DNA from: an uncultured Pelagibacteraceae bacterium
GTDB taxonomy: Bacteria > Pseudomonadota > Alphaproteobacteria > Pelagibacterales > Pelagibacteraceae
DNA: 34,607 bases
Assembly (NCBI GenBank): GCA_902602655.1
Contig: CACKRM010000008.1
Span: 1-34,607 of the forward strand
Reading direction: 5' to 3'
Made by a program: the position numbers and the translations under genes. Below the pieces are notes generated by a model that made no database searches, had not been told where the DNA came from, and saw nothing but the letters and a program-made list of their open reading frames with translations. This document shows, piece after piece, positions 8,600-19,837 of the stretch; position 1 is the first letter of the stretch, and every line of letters starts with the position of its first letter.

Positions 8600-10093
8600 A
8601 TGAATTTAATCGAACATTTCGTTAACGGTAAATTAAACAAAGGGACCTCCAAAAGAACAGGCAAAGTATTTAATCCAGCTACTGGATCTCAAAACTCAGA
8701 AGTTAAATTAGCAAATAAACATGACGTTGATAATGCAGTGAGTGTAGCTAAAAAAGCATTTATAACTTGGTCACAAAAAACACCTTTGTATAGGGCCAGA
8801 GTTCTTTTTAAATTTAAAGAACTCATTGAAAAAAATTCTGATTTGTTGACTAAAATTATTGTTTCGGAACATGGAAAAGTTTATGAGGATGCAAAAGGTT
8901 CTCTAACAAGAGGTTTGGAAGTTGTAGAATTTGCTTGTGGTATTCCGCAACTATTAAAGGGAGAGTTTACGGAAAATGTTGGAACAGATGTTGACAGTTG
9001 GTCCATGAGACAGCCTTTAGGCGTCTGTGCAGGCATAACACCTTTTAATTTCCCTGCAATGGTACCCATGTGGATGTTTCCCGTTGCCATTGCATGTGGT
9101 AACACATTTGTATTAAAACCTTCAGAAAAAGATCCAAGTTGTTCAATAAAGTTAGCAGAATTATTTACCGAAGCAGGTTTACCCGAGGGCGTATTTAATG
9201 TTGTGAATGGAGACAAAGAGTCGGTTGATGCAATTATTAGTAATAAGGATATATCTGCTGTTAGTTTTGTCGGATCAACTCCAATAGCAAAATATATTTA
9301 TGAAAATTGTTCCAAAAATGAAAAAAGAGTACAAGCGCTCGGAGGAGCTAAAAATCATTGTGTTATAATGCCCGATTGTGATTTAGATCAGGCAGTAAAT
9401 GGTTTAATCGGAGCAGCATATGGATCAGCAGGAGAAAGATGTATGGCCCAATCAGTTGCTGTAGCAGTTGGCAACATAGCAGAACCATTAGTAAAAAAAT
9501 TATCTGAGAAGGTAAAATCTTTAAAGATTGGACCTGGTTTAGACAAAGATTCTGAGATGGGACCGTTAGTTACAAAAGAACACTTAGAGAAAGTATTAAA
9601 TTATGTTGAAATAGGTATTAAAGAGGGTGCAAAATTAGTTGTTGATGGGAGAAAAGTAAATATATCAAAAAATCAAAAAGGTTTTTTTATGGGAGGCTGC
9701 TTGTTTGATAAAGTAGAAAAAAATATGAGAATTTATAAAGAAGAAATATTTGGACCAGTTCTTTCAATAGTCCGAGTAAAAGATTATAACGAGGCTTTAG
9801 CTTTGGTAAATGATCATGAGTTTGGAAATGGAGCAAGTATTTTTACAAGGGATGGAGACACTGGTAGATCTTTTGCTAGTAATGCCAAAATAGGAATGAT
9901 AGGTATTAATATACCGATACCTGTTCCAATGGCTTTTCATAGTTTTGGAGGATGGAAAAGATCGTTATTTGGTGACCAACATATACATGGTCCTGAAGGA
10001 GTAAGATTTTATACTAAATTGAAGACCATAACCTCAAGGTGGCCATCGGGTATTAAATCAGATGCAGAATTTGTTATGCCTACAATGAAATAA
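8600..10093 (+). CDS. mmsA: CoA-acylating methylmalonate-semialdehyde dehydrogenase
   Basis: This aldehyde dehydrogenase superfamily member matches the MmsA/IolA branch, which oxidises methylmalonate semialdehyde or malonate semialdehyde with NAD+ and CoA to propionyl- or acetyl-CoA plus CO2 (valine, thymine, myo-inositol or beta-alanine catabolism). Signs are WSMRQPLGVCAGITPFNFPAM (about 134-154), VLKPSEKDPSC, FVGSTPIAKYIY, QALGGAKNHCVIMPDCD and the catalytic C281 in GSAGERCMAQS. The GERCMAQ context and lack of a classical ALDH Glu in the ALGGAKNH stretch are typical of MmsA. Length 497 is normal. It sits between sdhB and mdh, 4 bases before mdh, so it is expressed with TCA enzymes. The exact physiological substrate cannot be read from the sequence. 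Confidence 0.92.
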   Translation: MNLIEHFVNGKLNKGTSKRTGKVFNPATGSQNSEVKLANKHDVDNAVSVAKKAFITWSQKTPLYRARVLFKFKELIEKNSDLLTKIIVSEHGKVYEDAKGSLTRGLEVVEFACGIPQLLKGEFTENVGTDVDSWSMRQPLGVCAGITPFNFPAMVPMWMFPVAIACGNTFVLKPSEKDPSCSIKLAELFTEAGLPEGVFNVVNGDKESVDAIISNKDISAVSFVGSTPIAKYIYENCSKNEKRVQALGGAKNHCVIMPDCDLDQAVNGLIGAAYGSAGERCMAQSVAVAVGNIAEPLVKKLSEKVKSLKIGPGLDKDSEMGPLVTKEHLEKVLNYVEIGIKEGAKLVVDGRKVNISKNQKGFFMGGCLFDKVEKNMRIYKEEIFGPVLSIVRVKDYNEALALVNDHEFGNGASIFTRDGDTGRSFASNAKIGMIGINIPIPVPMAFHSFGGWKRSLFGDQHIHGPEGVRFYTKLKTITSRWPSGIKSDAEFVMPTMK

Positions 10094-10097
10094 AGAT

Positions 10098-11057
10098 ATG
10101 AAAAAAAAAATTACTTTAATAGGAGCAGGACAGATTGGCGGGACATTAGCCCATCTTATTGCAATAAAAAAATTAGGTGACATAGTTCTTTTTGATGTAG
10201 CGGAGGGAATAGCTAAAGGTAAAGCATTAGATATAGCGCAATCATCACCAATTGATAATTTTGATGTAAACCTTAGTGGAACAAATAATTATGAAGATAC
10301 TAAAAACTCCGATGCAATCATAATCACTGCTGGTGTACCTCGTAAACCTGGAATGACAAGAGATGATCTTCTTGGAATAAATTTAAAAATTATAAAACAA
10401 GTATCTGAGGGAATAAAAAGCACATCTCCTAATGCTTTTGTGATTTGTATCACAAACCCCCTAGACGTAATAGTTATGGCCCTTCAAAGGTATTCAAAAT
10501 TTCCAAAAAACAAAGTTGTGGGTATGGCGGGTATACTTGATTCTTCTAGATTTAAATATTTTTTATCTAAAGAATTAAAGGTTCCAATTGGAGATGTTGA
10601 AACCTTAGTTTTAGGTGGCCATGGAGATACAATGGTTCCAATGTTAAACCATACTAAAATTAGAGGAGAGCCAATCGAAAATTTTATTAAGTCAGGAAAA
10701 ATTACTAAAGATAATATCGAAAAAATTGTTGATCGAACTAGAAAAGGTGGAGCTGAAATTGTTAAATATTTAGAAAAAGGGTCAGCCTATTATGCTCCAG
10801 CCGCCTCCGGAGTTCAGATGCTGGAGAGTTATTTGAAAGATTTAAAAAAAGAACTACCTTGTGCAGCTTTTCTAGAAAACGAATATGGCGCAAAAGATAT
10901 TTATGCGGGTGTTCCAGTTATTATTGGGAAGAATGGTGTTGAAAAAGTTGTGCAAATAAATTTATCAGAAAATGAGAAAAATCAGTTTGATAAATCTATT
11001 AACGCAGTAAAAGAACTTTTTGATGCTGCTAAAAAAATTGACCCAGAGTTAGAATAA
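10098..11057 (+). CDS. mdh: malate dehydrogenase
   Basis: Mdh interconverts malate and oxaloacetate with NAD+. It is of the LDH-like alphaproteobacterial type (319 residues): NAD-binding ITLIGAGQIGGTLAHL at the N-terminus, mobile-loop VPRKPGMTRDDLL with R82 and R88 for the dicarboxylate, ITNPLDVIVM (N120), and the proton-relay H175 in GGHGDTMVP. Arg rather than Gln in the specificity loop supports malate over lactate. It closes the + strand TCA segment on the left. The accessory block begins just 1 base after its stop codon, and sucC, with which it would be expected to be co-transcribed, is 7.6 kb away. Confidence 0.97.
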   Translation: MKKKITLIGAGQIGGTLAHLIAIKKLGDIVLFDVAEGIAKGKALDIAQSSPIDNFDVNLSGTNNYEDTKNSDAIIITAGVPRKPGMTRDDLLGINLKIIKQVSEGIKSTSPNAFVICITNPLDVIVMALQRYSKFPKNKVVGMAGILDSSRFKYFLSKELKVPIGDVETLVLGGHGDTMVPMLNHTKIRGEPIENFIKSGKITKDNIEKIVDRTRKGGAEIVKYLEKGSAYYAPAASGVQMLESYLKDLKKELPCAAFLENEYGAKDIYAGVPVIIGKNGVEKVVQINLSENEKNQFDKSINAVKELFDAAKKIDPELE

Positions 11058-11058
11058 A

Positions 11059-12606
11059 TTGAAAATTTTTTACCATAATCAAAATAAAATCTATTTTATT
11101 TTACTACTTATAAGTTCTTTATTTTTCAATTTTTATTATGGTTACAGGGGTATACTGCCTATCGATAGTTTTTTAATATTTGATGCTGGTTTTAATGTTC
11201 TAAACGGTTATCACCCTTTTAAAGATTACTGGTCAATAACAGGTCCTTTACTAGATTATTTACAATCCTCCTTATTTTTTTTATTTGATGTGAGTTGGTT
11301 TAGTTATGTTTTACACGGAACATTGATAAATGTTTTGATAACTTTATTTTGTTTTTATTTCTTTAAAAAAATTGGACTTAATTATTTTTTCTCTTTTATA
11401 TATTCACTTGGAATATCAATATTAGCTTACCCCAACATTGGAACTCCGTTTGTTGACCACCATGCTGTCATTTTTACACTTATATCAGTATGTTTTTTGT
11501 CATTAGGGATTTTATATGAAAAAAATTTTTATTATCTTTTAAGCTCAGTTTTTTTGGTTTTATCTTTTTTTTCTAAACAAATACCTTCGGCATATTTTTT
11601 TATTCTAATTATATTTTTTTTATTTACTGATTTTTATTATCTTAAAGAAAAAAGACTTAGTTATCTTACATATTTTTTTACAGGCCTGATTTTATGTGTG
11701 TGTTTTGTTTATCTTTTTTTTCTTTTTAATGGAATATCCATAGATGATTTTTTAATTCAATATTTAATGTATCCTTTCAGCCTTGGTAAAGATCGTGTTT
11801 TTAATATTGGTTTTGATTTTAAAAATATAATAGGCCAATTCAAGTTTTTATATTTATCAATACTCCCTTTGTTATTTATTACAATATTTAGTTTAAAAAA
11901 AGGAATAATTAAGAAAAAATTTTTTTTATTTGCTGTTTTAAATTTAAGTGCCACATTTATTTTCATCTACTCTCAATTGACAACTAAGAATCAGATTTTT
12001 ATCTTTTTTTTGATCCCTTTTTTTTCAGCACTTTCTCATATTTTTTTAATTAAGTTTTATAATAAAAATTACTTAATTTATCTCCTAGTCGGAGCATTTA
12101 TTTTTTCTACAACAAAGTACCATGTAAGATTTAATCATCTTAAAAAATTTATTGAACTTGAAACAACAGATTTCAACAAGGCTGTTAATGGCAATATGTT
12201 GGATGAAAGTTTTAGTGGATTAAAATGGTTAAACTCAGAATTTAATGATCCAAAAAAAGAAATGGCAATTTTGATTGAAATGAAAAATTTAATTATTAAT
12301 GATAGTAAAAGAAAGTTCGTAATAACTGATTATCAATTTTTTAATAGCCTGACTGGTAACTTATATTTGTCTCCTAGTAAGTGGTATGACGTTAGAAGTG
12401 TCCCACCTCAGAACAGTGATTACTTTGAAGATTACAAAAAGTTTTTTTTAAAACGCATAAAAAAAGATCGAATTGAAATAGTTTATATTATAGGAAGTGG
12501 AAAAAAAGAATATATCACTAATATAATCGATGACAAAAATTGTATAAAGTTTCAGAAAATCAATAAAATTTCTTTTAAGATTAATCTAACAGATTGTAAA
12601 ATTTAA
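11059..12606 (+). CDS. multi-pass membrane protein, probable GT-C fold glycosyltransferase
   Basis: The product (515 residues) is a polytopic membrane protein: an N-terminal span (about 11-28), a short periplasmic loop rich in acidic and aromatic residues (GILPIDSFLIFDAGFNVLNG, D36 and D42; then HPFKDYWSITG), about nine further hydrophobic spans to residue ~355, and a soluble C-terminal part. This is the layout of GT39/GT83-like enzymes (PMT, ArnT) that use polyprenyl-phosphate sugars as donors, with catalytic acids in the first loop. I do not recognise a named family member. The TTG at 11059 is chosen because no in-frame ATG occurs until well inside the membrane domain; it lies 1 base after the mdh stop, so translation may be coupled to mdh. 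Its stop TAA overlaps, on the opposite strand, the stop of the GT2 gene. Base composition is visibly more AT-rich than mdh, suggesting acquisition. Confidence 0.75.
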   Translation: MKIFYHNQNKIYFILLLISSLFFNFYYGYRGILPIDSFLIFDAGFNVLNGYHPFKDYWSITGPLLDYLQSSLFFLFDVSWFSYVLHGTLINVLITLFCFYFFKKIGLNYFFSFIYSLGISILAYPNIGTPFVDHHAVIFTLISVCFLSLGILYEKNFYYLLSSVFLVLSFFSKQIPSAYFFILIIFFLFTDFYYLKEKRLSYLTYFFTGLILCVCFVYLFFLFNGISIDDFLIQYLMYPFSLGKDRVFNIGFDFKNIIGQFKFLYLSILPLLFITIFSLKKGIIKKKFFLFAVLNLSATFIFIYSQLTTKNQIFIFFLIPFFSALSHIFLIKFYNKNYLIYLLVGAFIFSTTKYHVRFNHLKKFIELETTDFNKAVNGNMLDESFSGLKWLNSEFNDPKKEMAILIEMKNLIINDSKRKFVITDYQFFNSLTGNLYLSPSKWYDVRSVPPQNSDYFEDYKKFFLKRIKKDRIEIVYIIGSGKKEYITNIIDDKNCIKFQKINKISFKINLTDCKI

Positions 12607-13466
12607 GTTTTAAAGTTTAATACGTTTTTTACAATTTTTGATTTTTTAAAAAGAAAATTATTATTTAAATTAATAATTAAAAGACTAAGATTTAAAAATA
12701 TTAGTAATAAAGATAAAATTATGTTTATTTGTATATTTAGACCTATGCCAAAAATTAAAATTATAAATAAAATTGATCTAAGAAAAACCTGTGGTAAAAA
12801 AACTGAGATAATATTTAAAGAATGTTTAATTAAAAAAAACAAACTCACTTTTGAGTCTCCATAATACCTCTTTCTTTTTCTAAGATAACATTTTTTAATA
12901 CCCTTATAATTTTTAAGTATACCAGCTGAATAAGCGAGACCTAGATTTCTATTAATTAAAATTTTATTTAATAATTTACCATTAAAACTACTAAAATTTC
13001 CAAAATCGATATATTTTCCCGTTAAAATAAATGTGAAGATTAACCTACAATAATTTAGAATTTTATAAAAAAAAATTTCAGTTCTTTTTAATCTATTTGC
13101 AGTAATAATTAAATTTGGATTTGCTAAAGAAAGTTTTATCATTTTTGTTATCTTAGTTGGATCATCTTCCCCGTCAGAGTCTATGATAGTAATTATTGAT
13201 TTGTCTATTTTATTCTTTAAATGAACTAGAGCCGTATAGATGGCTTTTTGGCTTCCTAAATTTCTTGATAGATTTAATATTTTTATTTTTTTTATATTTT
13301 TTAATTTTTTAAAACTTAAATTAGGCTTAATGGTTGAACAGTCATTAATTACAAAAATTGAAAAATGTCCTTTTAAGTTTTTAAGGTTCTTATCAATTTC
13401 AAAAATTAATTTATTTAAAGATTTCCAGTCATTAAAAGTCGGAGTGATAATTGTAAAATTTTTCAT
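12603..13466 (-). CDS. GT2 family glycosyltransferase, polyprenyl-phosphate type
   Basis: The N-terminal catalytic domain has the GT-A layout of DPM1/GtrB/ArnC-like enzymes: FTIITPTFNDWKSLN (4-18), a VINDCST nucleotide-binding strand (39-45), NLSRNLGSQKAIYTAL (65-80) and the metal-binding acidic motif DSDGEDDP (96-103). The C-terminus (about 215-272) has two hydrophobic spans, as in GtrB-like transferases that load a sugar onto undecaprenyl phosphate at the inner face of the membrane. Family knowledge therefore predicts formation of a polyprenyl-P-sugar donor; the sugar is unknown. It is the second gene of a two-gene operon with the methyltransferase, whose stop is directly adjacent to this ATG. 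The 3' end meets the preceding + strand gene with overlapping stop codons. The two GT-C-like proteins of the block are natural users of its product. Confidence 0.82.
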   Translation of the reverse strand: MKNFTIITPTFNDWKSLNKLIFEIDKNLKNLKGHFSIFVINDCSTIKPNLSFKKLKNIKKIKILNLSRNLGSQKAIYTALVHLKNKIDKSIITIIDSDGEDDPTKITKMIKLSLANPNLIITANRLKRTEIFFYKILNYCRLIFTFILTGKYIDFGNFSSFNGKLLNKILINRNLGLAYSAGILKNYKGIKKCYLRKRKRYYGDSKVSLFFLIKHSLNIISVFLPQVFLRSILFIILIFGIGLNIQINIILSLLLIFLNLSLLIINLNNNFLFKKSKIVKNVLNFKT

Positions 13467-13994
13467 TCAAAACTTTGTATAATATATATCTGTCATAAAG
13501 AAAATATTTGATTTTTTTTTCAAGAAAGTTGTTTTTTTTAGTAAAATATTTATCTGTTCTTTATACGTTGACATTGTATTTTCATGTGCTTTACGATTCC
13601 CAGTTAAAAATTTTCCAATCTTACTTAAAATGTTTTGTTTGCCTAAACCAACTATGATTTTTGAATTAGGATTCATCTCTCTCAATTCATCCAATAAATT
13701 GCTAATCTCCTCTGGTCTCATATACATAAGCACATGATTAAAAACAATTATATCAAATTTAAGATTTTTGTAGCTTTTTAAGTCAGAAAACTCTTCTTTT
13801 ATATCATAGTTAAGCACCTTCACATTCTTCAGAGTTTTACTTAAAATTTTTTGACCACATCCAAAATCTAATATTGTTTTTTTTGTATCATCTAAATCTG
13901 CAATCTTTATAATGTTTTTTATTATTGAAATAAAATAAACTTTTTGAAAAAAATCATTATAATCTGTAGTTGGTATTTTGTTTAAGTTATACAT
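13467..13994 (-). CDS. small class I SAM-dependent methyltransferase
   Basis: The protein is 175 residues and shows the class I methyltransferase order: motif I TILDFGCGQKILSK (GxGxG-like, residues 40-53, DFGCG at 43-47), an acidic residue after strand 2 (VLNYDIKEEF, D64), and motif IV FDIIVFNHVLMYM (about 80-92) preceding a helix and VGLGKQN. These residues bind S-adenosylmethionine. The acceptor cannot be read from the sequence; sugar or lipid methylation is plausible from the neighbours. The ATG at 13994 is the first and is preceded by a consensus-like -10 element 9 bases upstream. It is followed with no spacer by the GT2 gene. The divergent flavoprotein gene starts 51 bases away. Confidence 0.8.
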   Translation of the reverse strand: MYNLNKIPTTDYNDFFQKVYFISIIKNIIKIADLDDTKKTILDFGCGQKILSKTLKNVKVLNYDIKEEFSDLKSYKNLKFDIIVFNHVLMYMRPEEISNLLDELREMNPNSKIIVGLGKQNILSKIGKFLTGNRKAHENTMSTYKEQINILLKKTTFLKKKSNIFFMTDIYYTKF

Positions 13995-14003
13995 TGTTTT
14001 AAG

Positions 14004-14032
14004 ATTATAGTGCAGAAATCATGGTTTAGAAA
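14004..14032 (-). promoter_or_regulatory. candidate promoter for the methyltransferase-GT2 operon
   Basis: Reading the minus strand there is a perfect TATAAT at 14009-14004 with a weak -35-like TTTCTA at 14032-14027 (17-base spacer). The -10 ends 9 bases before the ATG, so initiation at the usual distance would leave only a 2-3 base leader. In DNA this AT-rich a TATAAT arises often by chance, so this is only a candidate. The same 51-base gap must also hold the promoter of the divergent flavoprotein gene. Confidence 0.3.
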
Positions 14033-14045
14033 TAATAATTTATTT

Positions 14046-15416
14046 ATGAATTTAAAAACTGTTGTTATAGGAAGTGGATTATCAAGTTTATCTTTTGTAG
14101 ATAAATTTTTGGAAAAAAACGATTCTATTGATTTAATATCTCCAGATTTTGAATTTTTAAATAAAGAAGAATTTTTTCCAAACAAACATATATACAATGA
14201 TTTGCCACATCAAATTTATAGTTACATGGATAAAATTAATCATTATTTCCATTTTAACAAAATTTCAGTAGATAAAAATGCAAAAGTCTTAGGCTCTTTA
14301 GAATTTGGTGGGTTATCAAATTATTGGGGCTGTCAAATGGATCAAAATTTTATAGATGATCTTATCGGTTATAATAAAAAAAGCAAAAATGAGATAATAA
14401 ATTCATTTTTTGAAATTTTAAAAAAATTTAAATTACTAGGAAGTTTTTCACACAAAAAAAGAAAATATGAAAACGATTACAAAGTGGACTCTTTTTTTGA
14501 AAAGCTTTTAAAGAAAAAATTTAAAGATTTGGTCACTATAAAACCCATGTTGGCTTATTCAAACAATACAAAACTCATTCCAAAAAATTACTATGAAAAA
14601 TTTCTTAAAAAAAGAAAAATTAAAATTCACAATTATTTTGTAGAAAGAATAATTTACGAAAATAATGGTGTCATTTTAAAATGTAGAAATCAAAGTGAAT
14701 TAAAAACTTTTTATGCAAAAAAGGTAATTCTCGGCTGTGGCACGCTGGCTACTACAAAATTATTAATGGAATTTCTTAAAATTAAAGAAGAAGTGCGTAT
14801 AAAACATCATCCAAGATTGGTTTCTGTTTTTTTTTCAAAATTTAAAATAAAAAATATTTTTACATCTGCAAGCTCACAACTACATCTAAGAAGTAAAAAA
14901 AAAAGTAATTCTTTTGTTGTTGATTTTAGATCTGGAAATAAAACAATCATTGAGTCCGCAACAAAATTAAAAAAATATTTAATTCCATTTAAAATAATAC
15001 TTAGCCTTTTTAAAAATTTTATTATATTTTCAAATATTTTGTTAGACTCAAACCATAGTAATTTATTTATGAAAATGCAGACTAATGGTAAGATTAACAT
15101 TTATTCGAAACCTAAAAATACAACAGATGTTTTAAAAAAAATACATAAAAAAATTTTTAACATCTTGCGTAATGAAAAAATGATTTTACCACTCTCTAAA
15201 AACTTTTTCCCTGGGTATGGAAATGATTTTCATTATTTTGGCACTTTAACGAATAATAAAAAAAAGAAACTTTCTATAAACCAAAATTGCCAACTAAAAG
15301 GATATAAAAATATTTATGTTATTGACGGCTCAGTTTTTGATTTTAAAGTCAATAAATATCCATTAGGTGTGATTATGGCCAATGCGAGAAGAATAGCCAA
15401 GAAAATTAATAAATGA
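14046..15416 (+). CDS. GMC-like FAD-dependent oxidoreductase
   Basis: A dinucleotide-binding motif opens the protein (LKTVVIGSGLSSLSFVDKF, residues 3-21). The FGGLSNYWGC stretch (87-96) corresponds to the GMC GGxSxxWGG region, VILGCGTLATTKLL to the GMC AGAxxTxxLL signature, and the C-terminal NIYVIDGSVF...PLGVIMANARRIA to the GMC C-terminal domain. It should oxidise an alcohol to a carbonyl. The active-site His is probably H396 (FHYFGTL), but the second catalytic residue, usually Asn just before Pro, appears to be Y438. A hydrophobic, lysine-punctuated segment (about 311-333) suggests membrane contact. I choose ATG 14046 over GTG 14010 because it lies two residues before the Rossmann strand and leaves 51 bases to the divergent gene. 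The ATGA overlap with the aminotransferase gene argues for a shared pathway. Confidence 0.78.
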   Translation: MNLKTVVIGSGLSSLSFVDKFLEKNDSIDLISPDFEFLNKEEFFPNKHIYNDLPHQIYSYMDKINHYFHFNKISVDKNAKVLGSLEFGGLSNYWGCQMDQNFIDDLIGYNKKSKNEIINSFFEILKKFKLLGSFSHKKRKYENDYKVDSFFEKLLKKKFKDLVTIKPMLAYSNNTKLIPKNYYEKFLKKRKIKIHNYFVERIIYENNGVILKCRNQSELKTFYAKKVILGCGTLATTKLLMEFLKIKEEVRIKHHPRLVSVFFSKFKIKNIFTSASSQLHLRSKKKSNSFVVDFRSGNKTIIESATKLKKYLIPFKIILSLFKNFIIFSNILLDSNHSNLFMKMQTNGKINIYSKPKNTTDVLKKIHKKIFNILRNEKMILPLSKNFFPGYGNDFHYFGTLTNNKKKKLSINQNCQLKGYKNIYVIDGSVFDFKVNKYPLGVIMANARRIAKKINK

Positions 15417-16663
15417 AAATTTTTAGAATAAATCTTTATTTATCGATAACAAATTTTTTTAAAACTTTTTTTCACCAAAATAGTTTTAAGAATGAAAAAA
15501 TCATAAAAAGAATACTTAAAAAAACAAATAATAAAAAACTTATTTTATTAACGAGTCAGTGTAGAGTTTCGTTCTTATTAATATTAGATTATTTAAAGAA
15601 ATTTTATAGGAAAAAGAATGAAATTATTGTATGTGCATACAATCTACCAGAAATGGTTAACATTGCTATTAACTTAAATTTTAAAGTAATTTACTGCGAC
15701 CTGAACTATGAAAATGGTTTCTTTGACATAAATGAATTAAAAAAAAAAATTACATCCAAAACATCTTCGATACTTTTAACAAATATGTTCAACAATTACG
15801 ATCAAGGTCTACAAGTAAAAAAACTATGTGAGAAAAAAAAAATTTTTTTAATAGAGGATAACGCCATTTATTTTGATAATTTTTCGAAAAAAAAAGGTAA
15901 AAAGAAATATAGTGGAAGTCTAGGTGATTTTTCAATTTATAGTTTTAATATTATGAAAAATATATCAGCTCTCTATGGAGGTGCAGTAGCAACGAATAAT
16001 AAAAATTTTTATAATTTTGCATCAAATGAAATAAACCAATATAATAATTTTCCTAGATATCTTTTGTTAAAACAATCCTTTATATTTTTTATATTAAAAT
16101 TATTATCCGTAAAGTTTTTGTATAAAAATATTTTTTTTTATATAATTAGAGCTGCACATTTATCTCGTATTAATTTTCTTTTAATGCTTTTTTATCCTTC
16201 ACTAAAATTTAAAAAGATTAAATTTCCTAATTTTTACTTCACTAAATTAACAAATTTTTCAAGATCGTTAATTTATTTACAACTAATAAATCTTAAAAAA
16301 CGTTTAGAAAACCAAAAGCTTCGAAAACAAAATAACATTTATTATTATAAAAAATTTTCAAGTCTAGACTCAAAGAATATAAGGGTTATTAAAATCAAAG
16401 ATTTTGATTTTCAAAACTTCATCGATTTCCCTGTTTTAGTTAATAGAAGAGCTGATCTAAACAAATACCTGCTTGAAAATGGAATAGAAGCTAGAGTTTA
16501 TTATTACAAAAATTGTGAAAAAATATTTTCAAAAAAAAATATTAAATGTAGAAATGCGAATCGTTACGATCAAGAATTGATTTGTTTTCCAAATCATAAA
16601 AAAATTGGTAAAAAGTATATTGATTATTTAATAAATAAAATTTTAGTTTTTTATAAAATTTAG
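15413..16663 (+). CDS. DegT/DnrJ/EryC1/StrS-family PLP aminotransferase-like protein
   Basis: The fold order is that of sugar aminotransferases: a TSQCRVSFLLIL stretch (48-59) in place of SGTxAL, the PLP-stacking region, IEDNA with D149 at the pyridine-nitrogen position, and GDFSIYSFNIMKNISALYGGAVATN (171-195), where K182 is the expected Schiff-base lysine. Such enzymes transfer an amino group from glutamate or glutamine to a keto sugar. Odd is a long hydrophobic insertion at about 218-262 with scattered Lys/Arg, and a lysine-rich N-terminus; both suggest a membrane-associated version. The start overlaps the flavoprotein stop (ATGA), so oxidation followed by transamination of one substrate is a reasonable inference. 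Length 416. Its stop overlaps the stop of the small gene on the other strand by 4 bases. Confidence 0.8.
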   Translation: MKIFRINLYLSITNFFKTFFHQNSFKNEKIIKRILKKTNNKKLILLTSQCRVSFLLILDYLKKFYRKKNEIIVCAYNLPEMVNIAINLNFKVIYCDLNYENGFFDINELKKKITSKTSSILLTNMFNNYDQGLQVKKLCEKKKIFLIEDNAIYFDNFSKKKGKKKYSGSLGDFSIYSFNIMKNISALYGGAVATNNKNFYNFASNEINQYNNFPRYLLLKQSFIFFILKLLSVKFLYKNIFFYIIRAAHLSRINFLLMLFYPSLKFKKIKFPNFYFTKLTNFSRSLIYLQLINLKKRLENQKLRKQNNIYYYKKFSSLDSKNIRVIKIKDFDFQNFIDFPVLVNRRADLNKYLLENGIEARVYYYKNCEKIFSKKNIKCRNANRYDQELICFPNHKKIGKKYIDYLINKILVFYKI

Positions 16664-16917
16664 TTTTTAATTTCTTTTTGTATCTTATTTATGAAAGATC
16701 TAATAAGAGCCGCATCTTCTTGAGTTAGATATCGATCTTTTTTTATAGCAACATTCATTTCAGATCTAATTTTGTTTTTTATATGTTCTATATTTTCTTT
16801 AGAACTAAGTTTATTAATTTCGCTTTCTAACCTATTAATTTGCATCCCGATAGTAATTTGGAAAAGTACAAATAAACATACACAAATAATAATTGTTTTA
16901 TAAAAAAATAATTTCAT
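16660..16917 (-). CDS. small single-span membrane protein, unknown function
   Basis: The 85-residue product has one N-terminal hydrophobic span (about 5-25) followed by a charged helical region with heptad-like spacing (QINRLESEINKLSSKENI) and a lysine-rich end, so it is probably anchored in the inner membrane with a coiled-coil tail. I do not recognise a family. The ATG overlaps the stop of the upstream GT-C-like gene by 4 bases, a strong sign of translational coupling and of a possible subunit role. Being short, it deserves caution, but the coupling, a membrane segment at the right place and the tight packing on both sides support a real gene. Confidence 0.65.
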   Translation of the reverse strand: MKLFFYKTIIICVCLFVLFQITIGMQINRLESEINKLSSKENIEHIKNKIRSEMNVAIKKDRYLTQEDAALIRSFINKIQKEIKN

Positions 16918-18563
16918 TTAAACTCGCTTTTTTTATATATTTCATAAATATTATAAGAATGTAATTCAAAACTCTCTATTTTTTTAAAATTACTGGGAAT
17001 ATCATATTTATTGTTGAAATTTTTATCAACCTCACTTATGAAGTTTGTGAAAAGATAATCAGATTCCTGGTAATTTTGGCCTACAAAAAGTAATTTTTCT
17101 CTATCATTTTTGCTTAACAGAGCCGAACTTCTTTCCAAAGGGTACCACGCAGCGACACTAATTTTAATATTTTTTTTACTCTTTTCCTCTTTTTTAATAA
17201 TCTCATCCAAAGCTTTTTTCCCAGTTAATCCCCAATAATCAGCTTCAAATTTATTACTAAATATTTTGTTACCTATAGTATTGAAATATGTGTTTTGATA
17301 AGGATGGTAATATGAAATTTGGTAAATAATAAAAAAAAGATAGGTGCTTATAAGTAAGTAAAAAAATTTTTTTTTATCTTTTTTTATTTTAATAAGTATC
17401 AAATAAGAACCATAAACTGCAAAGTATATTATAAAAATATTTAAAAAAAAAGTTTGCCTCCAACCGGTATAAAGTAAAACACCTGAAAATGTTAGATAAA
17501 ATAAGAATCCAGTCAAATTAAAAAAAACAAAAAAATCTTTTTTTTCACTTATACTAGACCATAAATCATTTCTATTTGAATTTTTTTCAATTTTGAAAAA
17601 TTTAAGTAAGGTCCTTTTAAACTTTGTGGTGTAACCAAATAAAAATAAAATTAAATATAAAACTGGTGTTGTGATAATAATCCATGTTAACGTGTAGTGC
17701 ATTGGTAGAAATTTAACACTCAGGTATTCTCCATTAAAAAAAGTTTTTATTCCTAGTGGTGCATCTGAAAAATACTTAAAAGCTAACACTAAATTATTAA
17801 GAGTATCTTCCCAAATTGCAGGCCACAAAAGAAATGTAAACAAACAATATAGTATTACAAAAATTACTAAAGGTTTTATGACTTCAATTTTTTTCTGATT
17901 AGAATCAAGAAGAATCAACATTATAAATGAAATGGGAAAAAAAATTCCTAAAATCCTACTAGCGGTTGATAATGCAGAAAAAAAAGCGAATATTATTAAA
18001 TTTTTGTAATTAGATTTATCTATTGCAACAAAGCAATAATATAAAGCTATAGAACAAATTGAGAGAAAAATTATATCTTTATTGTTAAAAAAACTATGTC
18101 CATAAATTCTTGGAGATAAAACATAAAATAAAGTTCCTATTAATGCTAAGTCATAATTTTTGAATCGATTTAATATTAATTTAAAAAAATAAATAGAACT
18201 TATAAAGAAAATCAAAAAATTTAGTATATGTCTGAGATAAAAGTAGTCTCTTGGGTCTTTTATTTCAAAAATAACTTCTGTTAATGCTAAAGGTAAATCA
18301 AAAACAATACCATAATATGGGTGGTTCTCAGGATGAGGTACTGTAAAACCTGAATAACCCGTTTTAAGATTTACTGCTTCTTTAAATTCTTCAAAACCAA
18401 AAGTTTTTAAAACATATTCTAACCAGTAAAATCCACTCAGTCTGTGGAATTCCTCATCGATTGATATGCCATAATCTTTAAATGTAAAAATTCCAAAAAA
18501 AAGAAATAAGGAAAATAGAGCAAAAGCTATTATAAAAGTTATATTTTTAATATATTTAGGCAA
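16914..18563 (-). CDS. GT39/PMT-like membrane glycosyltransferase
   Basis: This 549-residue polytopic protein has the hallmarks of GT-C enzymes of the PMT/ArnT type: an N-terminal span (7-27), a first periplasmic loop with an acidic motif (DYGISIDEEFHR, 30-41), roughly ten more spans, a second loop with HSFFNNKDIIFL (about 155-166, the family NKD motif) and a soluble C-terminal domain beginning around residue 425. Such proteins move a sugar from a polyprenyl-phosphate carrier to a lipid, glycan or protein on the outer face of the inner membrane. The start is TTG at 18563, since no in-frame ATG lies near the first membrane span. It is followed by the 85-residue gene with a 4-base overlap. The acceptor is unknown. 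Confidence 0.82.
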   Translation of the reverse strand: MPKYIKNITFIIAFALFSLFLFFGIFTFKDYGISIDEEFHRLSGFYWLEYVLKTFGFEEFKEAVNLKTGYSGFTVPHPENHPYYGIVFDLPLALTEVIFEIKDPRDYFYLRHILNFLIFFISSIYFFKLILNRFKNYDLALIGTLFYVLSPRIYGHSFFNNKDIIFLSICSIALYYCFVAIDKSNYKNLIIFAFFSALSTASRILGIFFPISFIMLILLDSNQKKIEVIKPLVIFVILYCLFTFLLWPAIWEDTLNNLVLAFKYFSDAPLGIKTFFNGEYLSVKFLPMHYTLTWIIITTPVLYLILFLFGYTTKFKRTLLKFFKIEKNSNRNDLWSSISEKKDFFVFFNLTGFLFYLTFSGVLLYTGWRQTFFLNIFIIYFAVYGSYLILIKIKKDKKKFFYLLISTYLFFIIYQISYYHPYQNTYFNTIGNKIFSNKFEADYWGLTGKKALDEIIKKEEKSKKNIKISVAAWYPLERSSALLSKNDREKLLFVGQNYQESDYLFTNFISEVDKNFNNKYDIPSNFKKIESFELHSYNIYEIYKKSEFK

Positions 18564-18676
18564 AATAAGATTATATTACTAATATTCAAAATTACTATTA
18601 TTTTTAAAACACATATTCAATTAAATTAATAATGCGAGATTGTATAAAAAACTATATAAAATTTGATAAATAAATA
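18564..18676. promoter_or_regulatory. divergent intergenic region between membrane glycosyltransferase and sucC
   Basis: At 113 bases this is the longest gene-free stretch of the window and must hold a promoter in each direction. On the minus strand a perfect TATAAT lies at 18575-18570, 6 bases before the TTG start, without a good -35. On the plus strand two TATAAA boxes lie at 18643-18648 and 18655-18660, each with only a half-matching -35. No Shine-Dalgarno sequence precedes sucC. No tRNA, riboswitch-like structure or inverted repeat was found. Confidence 0.35.
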
Positions 18677-19837
18677 ATGAATATTCACGAACACCAGGCA
18701 AAAGAGATTTTAAAAGAATATGGCGCGCCAGTTCCAAGGGGAATAGCTGTAACAGATTTAAACAACCTAGAAGATAAGCTTAGAAAAATTGATGCAAAAA
18801 CACTAGTTTTAAAAGCCCAGATACATGCTGGAGGTAGAGGCAAAGCTGGTGGAGTTAAATTAATTGAAAATAGAAAAAATTTGTTAAACGAAGCTAAATT
18901 GATGTTAAATAAGAAACTAGTAACACACCAGACAGGTCCCGAAGGCCGTCAAGTAAAAAGATTATATATTGAGGAAGCATCGGAGATTAAAGAAGAGTTT
19001 TATCTTTCATGTTTAGTAGATAGAGCAAGTTCAAAAATTGCATTTATAAGTAGTACTGAAGGAGGCACAGATATAGAAGCAATTGCTATAAAATATCCAA
19101 AAAAAATTTCCACTTCTTTAGTTGAACTAAATAATGAAATAAATGAAAAAGATATTTTAAAAATTACAAAGAACTTTAATTTTACGATTGATCAGGAAAA
19201 AGAAGCAAAAAAAATTATTCAAGCACTATATAAAATTTTAATTGAAAAAGATGCAACGTTAATTGAGATCAATCCACTTATTATAAATAAAAAAAATAAC
19301 TTAATTTGTTTAGATGCAAAAATGAATTTTGATGATAATGCAGTTTTTAGAAGACCTGAAATCTCAAAATTGAGAGATTTAAATGAAGAAGATCCAACAG
19401 AAATTGAAGCTAGCAAATTTGATTTATCCTATATTAAGCTTGATGGATCTATTGGTTGTATGGTTAATGGCGCTGGCTTAGCTATGGCAACTATGGATAT
19501 AATAAAACTTTATGGCGAAGAACCTGCAAACTTTTTAGACGTTGGAGGAGGCGCATCAAAAGAAAAAGTATCTGCAGCCTTTAAATTAATTTTATCAGAT
19601 AAAAATATAAAAGGAATATTAATAAATATTTTTGGTGGAATAATGAGATGTGATGTTTTAGCTCAAGGTCTAGTGGAAGCAGCGAAGGAAACAAATTTAA
19701 CAGTGCCACTAGTAGTAAGGTTAGCTGGAACAAACTTTGAAGAAGGAAATAAAATTTTAAAAGAGTCAGGATTAAAAATTGTACCTGCTAACGATTTAAA
19801 TGATGCAGCACAAAAAATTGTTAAAGCTATAAAATAA
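18677..19837 (+). CDS. sucC: succinyl-CoA synthetase beta subunit (ADP-forming)
   Basis: SucC is the ATP-grasp and succinate-binding subunit of succinyl-CoA synthetase, which makes ATP (or GTP) from succinyl-CoA. Evidence: MNIHEHQAKEILKEYGAPVP at the N-terminus, the ATP-grasp stretch KAQIHAGGRGKAGGVKL, EINPLIINKK with the metal-binding Glu/Asn, and the C-terminal flavodoxin-like part with GGIMRCDVLAQGLVEAA and RLAGTNFEEGNKIL. Length 386 is standard. The ATG is followed by sucD with no spacer (stop TAA directly before the sucD ATG). It is the first gene after the accessory block and so needs its own promoter in the 113-base gap. Confidence 0.98.
   Translation: MNIHEHQAKEILKEYGAPVPRGIAVTDLNNLEDKLRKIDAKTLVLKAQIHAGGRGKAGGVKLIENRKNLLNEAKLMLNKKLVTHQTGPEGRQVKRLYIEEASEIKEEFYLSCLVDRASSKIAFISSTEGGTDIEAIAIKYPKKISTSLVELNNEINEKDILKITKNFNFTIDQEKEAKKIIQALYKILIEKDATLIEINPLIINKKNNLICLDAKMNFDDNAVFRRPEISKLRDLNEEDPTEIEASKFDLSYIKLDGSIGCMVNGAGLAMATMDIIKLYGEEPANFLDVGGGASKEKVSAAFKLILSDKNIKGILINIFGGIMRCDVLAQGLVEAAKETNLTVPLVVRLAGTNFEEGNKILKESGLKIVPANDLNDAAQKIVKAIK

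Follow-up and report, generated by a model that had tools for sequence, protein, structure and literature searches.

Introduction

The usual view is that bacteria assemble amino sugars for the most part while these are attached to soluble nucleotides. In pathways of the kind served by the aminotransferases ArnB, PseC, QdtB and WbpE, dehydratases or enzymes dependent on nicotinamide adenine dinucleotide (NAD) supply the keto sugar, and in several of these pathways the product is known to be N-acylated. Here we analyze a gene pair from an uncultured bacterium of the abundant marine SAR11 type (Pelagibacteraceae) that encodes a flavoprotein with a GMC fold and a pyridoxal phosphate (PLP) aminotransferase with a DegT fold. 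The pair lies in a stretch of 34,607 nucleotides (contig CACKRM010000008.1 of assembly GCA_902602655.1; hereafter the window), which has a G+C content of 30% and comes from a genome that is 62% complete. We propose, with a confidence just short of even, that the pair is the core of an oxidize-aminate(-acylate) module supplying an amino sugar to a surface glycan, docked at the membrane and acting on a polyprenyl-phosphate substrate.

The logic of oxidizing first and then aminating is already known from aminoglycosides. In gentamicin biosynthesis oxidation is carried out by the flavin-linked dehydrogenase GenQ and amination by GenB1; neo11, from the neomycin pathway, complements genQ (PMC4039129, in the parts that bear on these steps). 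The analogy with such systems, drawn in an earlier reading of the window from its sequence (the first-pass annotation), is a fair one: the carbonyl that a flavin-linked enzyme makes from a sugar hydroxyl is aminated by a PLP enzyme, the comparison being one of logic and not of sequence. The difference is that GenQ, GenB1 and Neo11 serve soluble antibiotic substrates, and no membrane segments are reported for them in those parts of the paper.

The aminotransferase of the window shares its fold and its PLP lysine with ArnB, PseC, QdtB and WbpE, but has extra hydrophobic and basic residues relative to the Pfam model. The flavoprotein resembles the GMC sugar oxidoreductases (fructose dehydrogenase, pyranose 2-oxidase and flavin adenine dinucleotide (FAD) glucose dehydrogenase) in fold over nearly its full length; however, it is only 10-14% identical to them, is shorter and has a Tyr at the second active-site position. 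The precedent for the setting is DprE1/DprE2, which edit polyprenyl-phosphate sugars. There, too, a flavoprotein oxidizes a sugar and a second enzyme handles the keto sugar, and relatives occupy the SAR11 mdh-sucC slot. In contrast to the pair, DprE1 is of the FAD_binding_4 type and not a GMC protein, and DprE2 is a reductase and not an aminotransferase. A limited literature search returned no paper joining a GMC oxidoreductase, DegT and polyprenyl, or DprE1 with an aminotransferase and the oxidation of polyprenyl-linked substrates in proteobacteria; nor did it return one on SAR11 decaprenylphosphoryl sugars, on hypervariable aminotransferase and glycosyltransferase genes together in Pelagibacter, or on a SAR11 mdh glycosyltransferase island.

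The two genes form a conserved pair

A scan of genome_contigs with family-derived patterns gave 28 loci with the flavoprotein, all titled Pelagibacteraceae; together with the window the set comprises 29. Four of these (L060, L066, L070 and L071), in which the flavoprotein is cut by a contig end, were excluded from the adjacency count, leaving 25 testable loci. Whether homologues of the two genes are ever neighbors had been set beforehand as a test, and they are adjacent in 24 of the 25. The DegT gene directly follows the flavoprotein gene on the same strand in 21 loci, the neighbor is on the opposite strand in three (L061, L063 and L068), and none adjoins in one (L065), which comes from an isolate with a complete pair at L058. 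Adjacent pairs also occur away from mdh (e.g. L045, L053, L054, L055, L062 and L067). The ATGA overlap of the two genes, claimed at first pass, is confirmed by their frames (Table 1). The intergenic spacing ranges from -11 to +3 bases among the 20 one-strand loci with a measurable flavoprotein length and is -4 in 10 of them. An in-frame GTG at 14010 offers the flavoprotein an alternative start; its relatives begin near 14046. In L069, near 10001-11348, the flavoprotein gene is in two pieces, owing to a frameshift or an assembly error, and DegT still follows.

In a sample of 101 genomes from the genus, 13 contain the flavoprotein and 12 a close DegT protein (44-61% identity), all 12 being among the 13; in the remaining one, G095, the flavoprotein runs into the contig end. 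The DegT protein that adjoins the flavoprotein in L055 is only 29% identical to the window aminotransferase. Co-divergence of the flavoprotein and DegT (r 0.54 over 19 loci; 0.80 without L055) is not specific to the pair, because the correlation between the flavoprotein and GTC1, a neighboring membrane protein, is about as strong (r 0.78).

The samples used to determine the distribution were drawn from one phylum, and the genome_contigs scan, made with family patterns, is the only look beyond it. The flavoprotein was found in 1 of 385 genomes at class level, the window's own (E ≤ 1e-12). At phylum level 4 of 398 genomes matched (E ≤ 1e-5), namely that of the window and three in which just a short C-terminal stretch matched, and a family-level draw gave 10 of 147 genomes and 2 of 14 genera. 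Within the samples searched, the flavoprotein subfamily was seen in Pelagibacteraceae only. A phage origin of the flavoprotein was also considered and rejected; a pattern search with a single sequence found no relative in viral_contigs.

Most relatives encode a probable N-acylating enzyme

Eleven of the 13 genomes with the flavoprotein encode either a GNAT acetyltransferase (8) or a formyltransferase related to WlaRD (3), while these subfamilies occur in none of the 88 genomes without it. The counts were made at E ≤ 1e-10, a threshold that we chose to stay within the subfamilies. The two sets (8/101 and 3/101) are disjoint, and the hypergeometric probability of 5e-13 treats the genomes as independent, which they are not. 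One GNAT case (G017) is a 53-residue fragment at a contig edge; two GNAT proteins that were scanned lie above the Pfam cut-offs. The formyltransferase-like family matched solved sugar N-formyltransferases by profile at 2e-4 and 6e-4, and one scanned member had no Pfam match. Both genomes with neither enzyme (G000 and G095) are 62-63% complete. Neither a GNAT nor a formyltransferase gene turned up in the genome of the window, which is 62% complete; there, a methyltransferase gene adjoins the pair.

In G062 and G084 the formyltransferase is located between mdh and sucC (L099 and L100), and its link with the pair is not mere adjacency, because the pair lies at another site (L034 and L033, respectively). 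Gene order is shared between G062 and G084 and their flavoproteins are very alike, and the two may represent a single event. Of the 11 complete mdh-sucC islands with the pair, 9 contain a GNAT or formyltransferase gene, 11 GTC1, 7 GT2 and 8 PMT_2. The distribution of the acylating enzymes (11/13 versus 0/88) therefore supports a sequence of oxidation, amination and N-acylation. Together with the adjacency of the genes and the divergent DegT kept in L055, it upholds the functional coupling of the pair claimed at first pass, and an amine-making module is well supported by gene association.

In L086-L089 there is a second DegT subfamily, which has a comparable hydrophobic stretch and lies alongside PMT_2 and an 85-residue protein. 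The next gene encodes either a formyltransferase (L087; PF00551, 4.5e-14) or a 188-residue protein without a confident family (L088 was scanned). It is followed by a 306-residue protein with flavoprotein-like motifs, and the set (e.g. L088:8705-11398) lies upstream of a gapA-looking gene. The 306-residue protein matched the flavoprotein family along just 39 columns (probability 88, E 3.4e-6), had no NCBIfam match and gave one chance viral match in Pfam. Because the family match is short and others are lacking, the label flavoprotein-like rests mainly on the motif.

Folds and active sites

The GMC-like family proposed for the flavoprotein is borne out by its predicted structure, which has a mean predicted local distance difference test (pLDDT) score of 84.3. 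Its best structural match is fructose dehydrogenase, with Z 26.5 and a root-mean-square deviation of 3.7 over 422 residues; fructose dehydrogenase, pyranose 2-oxidase and FAD glucose dehydrogenase gave Z scores of 26.2-26.5. The only Pfam match is GMC_oxred_C, at 19.1 bits and under the cut-off of 24.6, and FAD_binding_4, the domain of DprE1, did not match. A GSGLSS motif for FAD sits at the N-terminus. H396, invariant in 12 of 12 aligned members, pairs with His447 of cholesterol oxidase if a two-residue gap is shifted, while the printed alignment pairs F398; H396 is likely the counterpart of the GMC active-site His. The structural relatives act on sugars, but a common fold by itself reveals no function.

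The second protein belongs to the DegT family by its Pfam match; PF01041 scored 102.8 bits against a cut-off of 19.8. The model (mean pLDDT 78.5, with residues 169-191 around K182 below 50) matched ArnB at Z 28.0, one of many sugar aminotransferases with tied scores. K182 is invariant in 11 of 11 members and is aligned with the PLP lysine of solved sugar aminotransferases, which identifies an aminotransferase and not a dehydratase.

Hydrophobic basic segments

It had been claimed that each protein carries a hydrophobic insertion punctuated by lysines. The segments are present and conserved in both families. Residues 213-265 of the aminotransferase contain 7-12 K/R and 0-1 D/E in 11 of 11 aligned members, and residues 309-335 of the flavoprotein contain 2-5 K/R and 0-2 D/E in 12 of 12. 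The aminotransferase segment is a true insertion: residues 201-276 map between positions 192 and 220 of the Pfam model, which leaves about 49 extra residues, and the insertion is mainly helical in the predicted structure. For the flavoprotein an insertion is not established; it is shorter than the solved GMC enzymes that it matched, and residues 326-333 form a predicted strand. The stretch is absent from the aligned sequence of a control DegT protein of the window's genome (L001), yet the top 18-residue window elsewhere in that protein is similarly hydrophobic (0.52 versus 0.55 in the window aminotransferase). The segment differs from the control in the length of the stretch and in its lack of acidic residues, and not in peak hydrophobicity. 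From these sequence features, both enzymes may dock at the membrane through their basic hydrophobic segments.

The nature of the substrate

The genes are associated, and from folds, conserved residues and genomic context we infer the chemistry, the oxidized carbon, the substrate and the docking of the following route. As its fold and conserved residues suggest, the GMC flavoprotein would convert a sugar hydroxyl to a carbonyl, which the DegT enzyme would aminate by PLP transamination. In most relatives the amine would be capped by the GNAT acetyltransferase or the formyltransferase. The substrate would be a sugar on polyprenyl phosphate at the inner membrane, with both enzymes docked there, and the membrane glycosyltransferases of the island (GTC1 and PMT_2) would then use the edited lipid-linked sugar for the SAR11 surface glycan. 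A lipid-linked substrate is the likeliest single reading of the context, at a little under one half.

The membrane-bound substrate suggested in the first-pass annotation receives indirect support from the conserved segments, from the neighboring GT2 gene and from the DprE1/DprE2-like genes that occupy the slot elsewhere in the genus. The GT2 profile matched the glycosyltransferase sll0501 (2e-17), known as GtrB, as well as ArnC (9e-17) and dolichol-phosphate mannose synthase (6e-6), enzymes that attach sugars to polyprenyl phosphates. The slot of L108 holds a DprE1-like oxidase (DprE1 in PDB, 8e-31; NCBIfam 1e-56, at 193 of 500 bits) and a DprE2-like reductase (4e-25, below the cut-off and outscored by a generic short-chain dehydrogenase/reductase model). 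In L116 a DprE1-like oxidase (NCBIfam 1e-30; PDB 5e-14) accompanies a class III aminotransferase (PF00202); L117 has the same gene order, with the aminotransferase assigned by likeness. FAD_binding_4 was found in the oxidases of L108, L116 and L117. The DprE1 model matched 5 of the 101 genomes at 1e-12, and 3 of these 5 genes are at the mdh-sucC slot. By guilt by association, the slot repeatedly hosts oxidize-and-process pairs of the lipid-linked kind.

The genes in L116:2325-5072 and L117:2375-5121 form a second, unrelated oxidize-aminate pair at the mdh-sucC slot. The other two of the five DprE1-like genes are those of L146 and L147. In L146:5374-8278 a probable UbiA-like gene (assigned by eye) is followed by DprE1-like and DprE2-like genes. 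In L147:5798-7864 the DprE1-like gene is split into two parts and is accompanied by a DprE2-like gene and, as judged by eye, by a probable GT2 and a probable membrane transferase. The DprE1/DprE2-like pairs of L108:1661-3688, L146 and L147 have the order expected of a pathway of the decaprenyl-phosphoryl-arabinose type.

Several observations weigh against a membrane-docked pair acting on lipid-linked sugars. There is no firm tie between GT2 and the pair, since 4 of the 11 complete pair islands (L047, L052, L058 and L064) lack GT2 and 13 of 48 islands that lack the pair contain it. The DprE1-like matches are below the curated cut-off in all 5 genomes, and their E-value alone is not specific, because the same search also matched 8 of 14 control genomes. 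A strong excess of basic residues marks the two proteins as a whole (77 K/R versus 27 D/E, and 84 versus 37). Many structural matches of the aminotransferase, including ArnB, use soluble nucleotide sugars. The label of GTC1 as a GT-C enzyme comes from membrane segments and one sub-threshold match. Finally, the second GMC active-site position is usually Asn or His, but here Y438, invariant in 12 of 12 members, is aligned opposite Asn485 of cholesterol oxidase; for this reason we claim only a GMC fold and not a canonical GMC oxidase.

An unlikely but still appreciable alternative is that the substrate is a soluble nucleotide sugar. In that case the flavoprotein would replace an NAD-dependent oxidase or a dehydratase, DegT would aminate, the GNAT or formyltransferase would acylate, an ordinary glycosyltransferase would use the product, and the hydrophobic segments would be dimer or partner contacts. 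It is consistent with the nucleotide-sugar substrates of the closest solved relatives of the aminotransferase (ArnB, PseC and QdtB), with the relation of the formyltransferase to WlaRD, with hydrophobic patches on both partners that could contact each other, and with the islands that lack GT2. However, the insertion in DegT falls outside the Pfam model, DprE1/DprE2-like genes occupy the same slot in another genome, and the surrounding glycosyltransferases are of membrane or polyprenyl-phosphate types.

Less probable still is that the pair acts once transfer is complete, editing a sugar or lipid head group of, for example, a glycolipid, lipid A or some other finished membrane glycan and not a sugar on the polyprenyl carrier. 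The same hydrophobic segments and the membrane-protein neighbors would fit this, and the chemistry does not separate the carrier from the final lipid. However, neither protein has an evident export signal (judged by eye, no predictor having been run), so that only inner-leaflet lipids would be reachable, and the DprE1/DprE2 precedent concerns a carrier-linked sugar. That the neighbors do not act in sequence on one substrate, the site merely gathering unrelated surface-sugar genes, is very improbable: the mdh-sucC site does mix many enzymes, and L065, L061, L063 and L068 depart from the usual arrangement, but the pair is adjacent almost throughout, also away from mdh, a divergent DegT is retained in L055, and a second DegT subfamily recurs in L086-L089 with an acyltransferase or 188-residue gene and a short flavoprotein-like gene, though the likeness of the short protein is weak.

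The mdh-sucC interval is an exchange site

By the names given from Pfam matches, the window carries leuCD, leuB, asd, sdhCDAB, an aldehyde dehydrogenase gene, mdh and the island with the pair, followed by sucCD, sucA, sucB, lpd, priA and ATP synthase genes. The genes mdh and sucC are on one contig and in the same direction in 58 of the 101 genomes, with a gap of 0 to 8,477 bases; this count left out 7 of 75 sucC rows (partial or contig-edge genes and others), none of which shares a contig with an mdh row. Three of the 58 sites are empty, 7 contain the pair and 48, all of them examined, contain other genes; G021, G062 and G084 belong to the last group and carry the pair elsewhere. GTC1 is present in 47 of the 48 sites with other genes and in all 7 with the pair, and the remaining cargo is mixed: PMT_2 with the 85-residue protein, FkbM and other methyltransferases, a GSDH-like protein and oxidase pairs. 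The interval is an exchange site for sugar-customizing enzymes in the genus. Neither this site nor the acylation step had been noticed at first pass. GTC1 may be a GT-C glycosyltransferase; its relative in L099 matched PMT_2 below the cut-off, and the GTC1 profile gave no useful match in PDB.

Table 1. Coordinates of the pair, its conserved segments and the other genes of the island in the window
Feature	Position	Strand	Basis
GMC-fold flavoprotein, 456 residues, proposed sugar hydroxyl oxidase	14046..15416	+	fold, Pfam match below cut-off, N-terminal GxGxxS FAD motif
DegT-fold PLP aminotransferase, 416 residues, proposed sugar aminotransferase	15413..16663	+	PF01041, invariant K182 and D149
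Hydrophobic basic segment of flavoprotein, residues 309-335	14970..15050	+	composition conserved in family
Hydrophobic basic helical insertion of aminotransferase, residues 213-265	16049..16207	+	alignment, Pfam gap, model
Variable island	11058..18676	.	between mdh (10098-11057) and sucC (18677-19837)
GTC1 membrane protein, possibly GT-C glycosyltransferase	11059..12606	+	membrane segments; in 54/55 non-empty islands
GT2 glycosyltransferase, polyprenyl-phosphate type (ArnC, sll0501 relatives)	12603..13466	-	Pfam, profile matches
Methyltransferase beside pair	13467..13994	-	Methyltransf_23, 32.5 bits, cut-off 27
85-residue protein, one predicted membrane segment, neighbor of PMT_2 protein	16660..16917	-	
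PMT_2-family membrane glycosyltransferase	16914..18563	-	40.9 bits, cut-off 26.1

We tentatively suggest, with somewhat less than even confidence in the claim as a whole, that SAR11 aminates polyprenyl-phosphate sugars with a GMC flavoprotein, a docked DegT enzyme and exchangeable acyl caps, and that its lineages swap editors of lipid-linked sugars (the pair of the window, DprE1/DprE2-like enzymes, or a DprE1-like enzyme with a class III aminotransferase) in one slot beside a common membrane glycosyltransferase, so diversifying the surface. If this is true, a flavoprotein-aminotransferase pair acting on lipid-linked sugars would be another route to amino sugars, and it would explain part of the exchangeable pool of surface genes in SAR11. 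The idea can be tested at this slot, since nature has paired a single membrane protein there with different, predictable sugar-editing modules. The surface glycans of SAR11 may also influence attack by phages, as has been suggested for SAR11 phages (PMC7029224); the parts of that paper on SAR11 phages contain no description of the mdh-sucC site.

A glucose/sorbosone dehydrogenase-like protein (PF07995) is encoded beside GTC1 in L113:1636-2874, and L133 has a gene of equal length and order. In many relatives the 85-residue protein is encoded next to PMT_2, and it may act as a small partner of this transferase.

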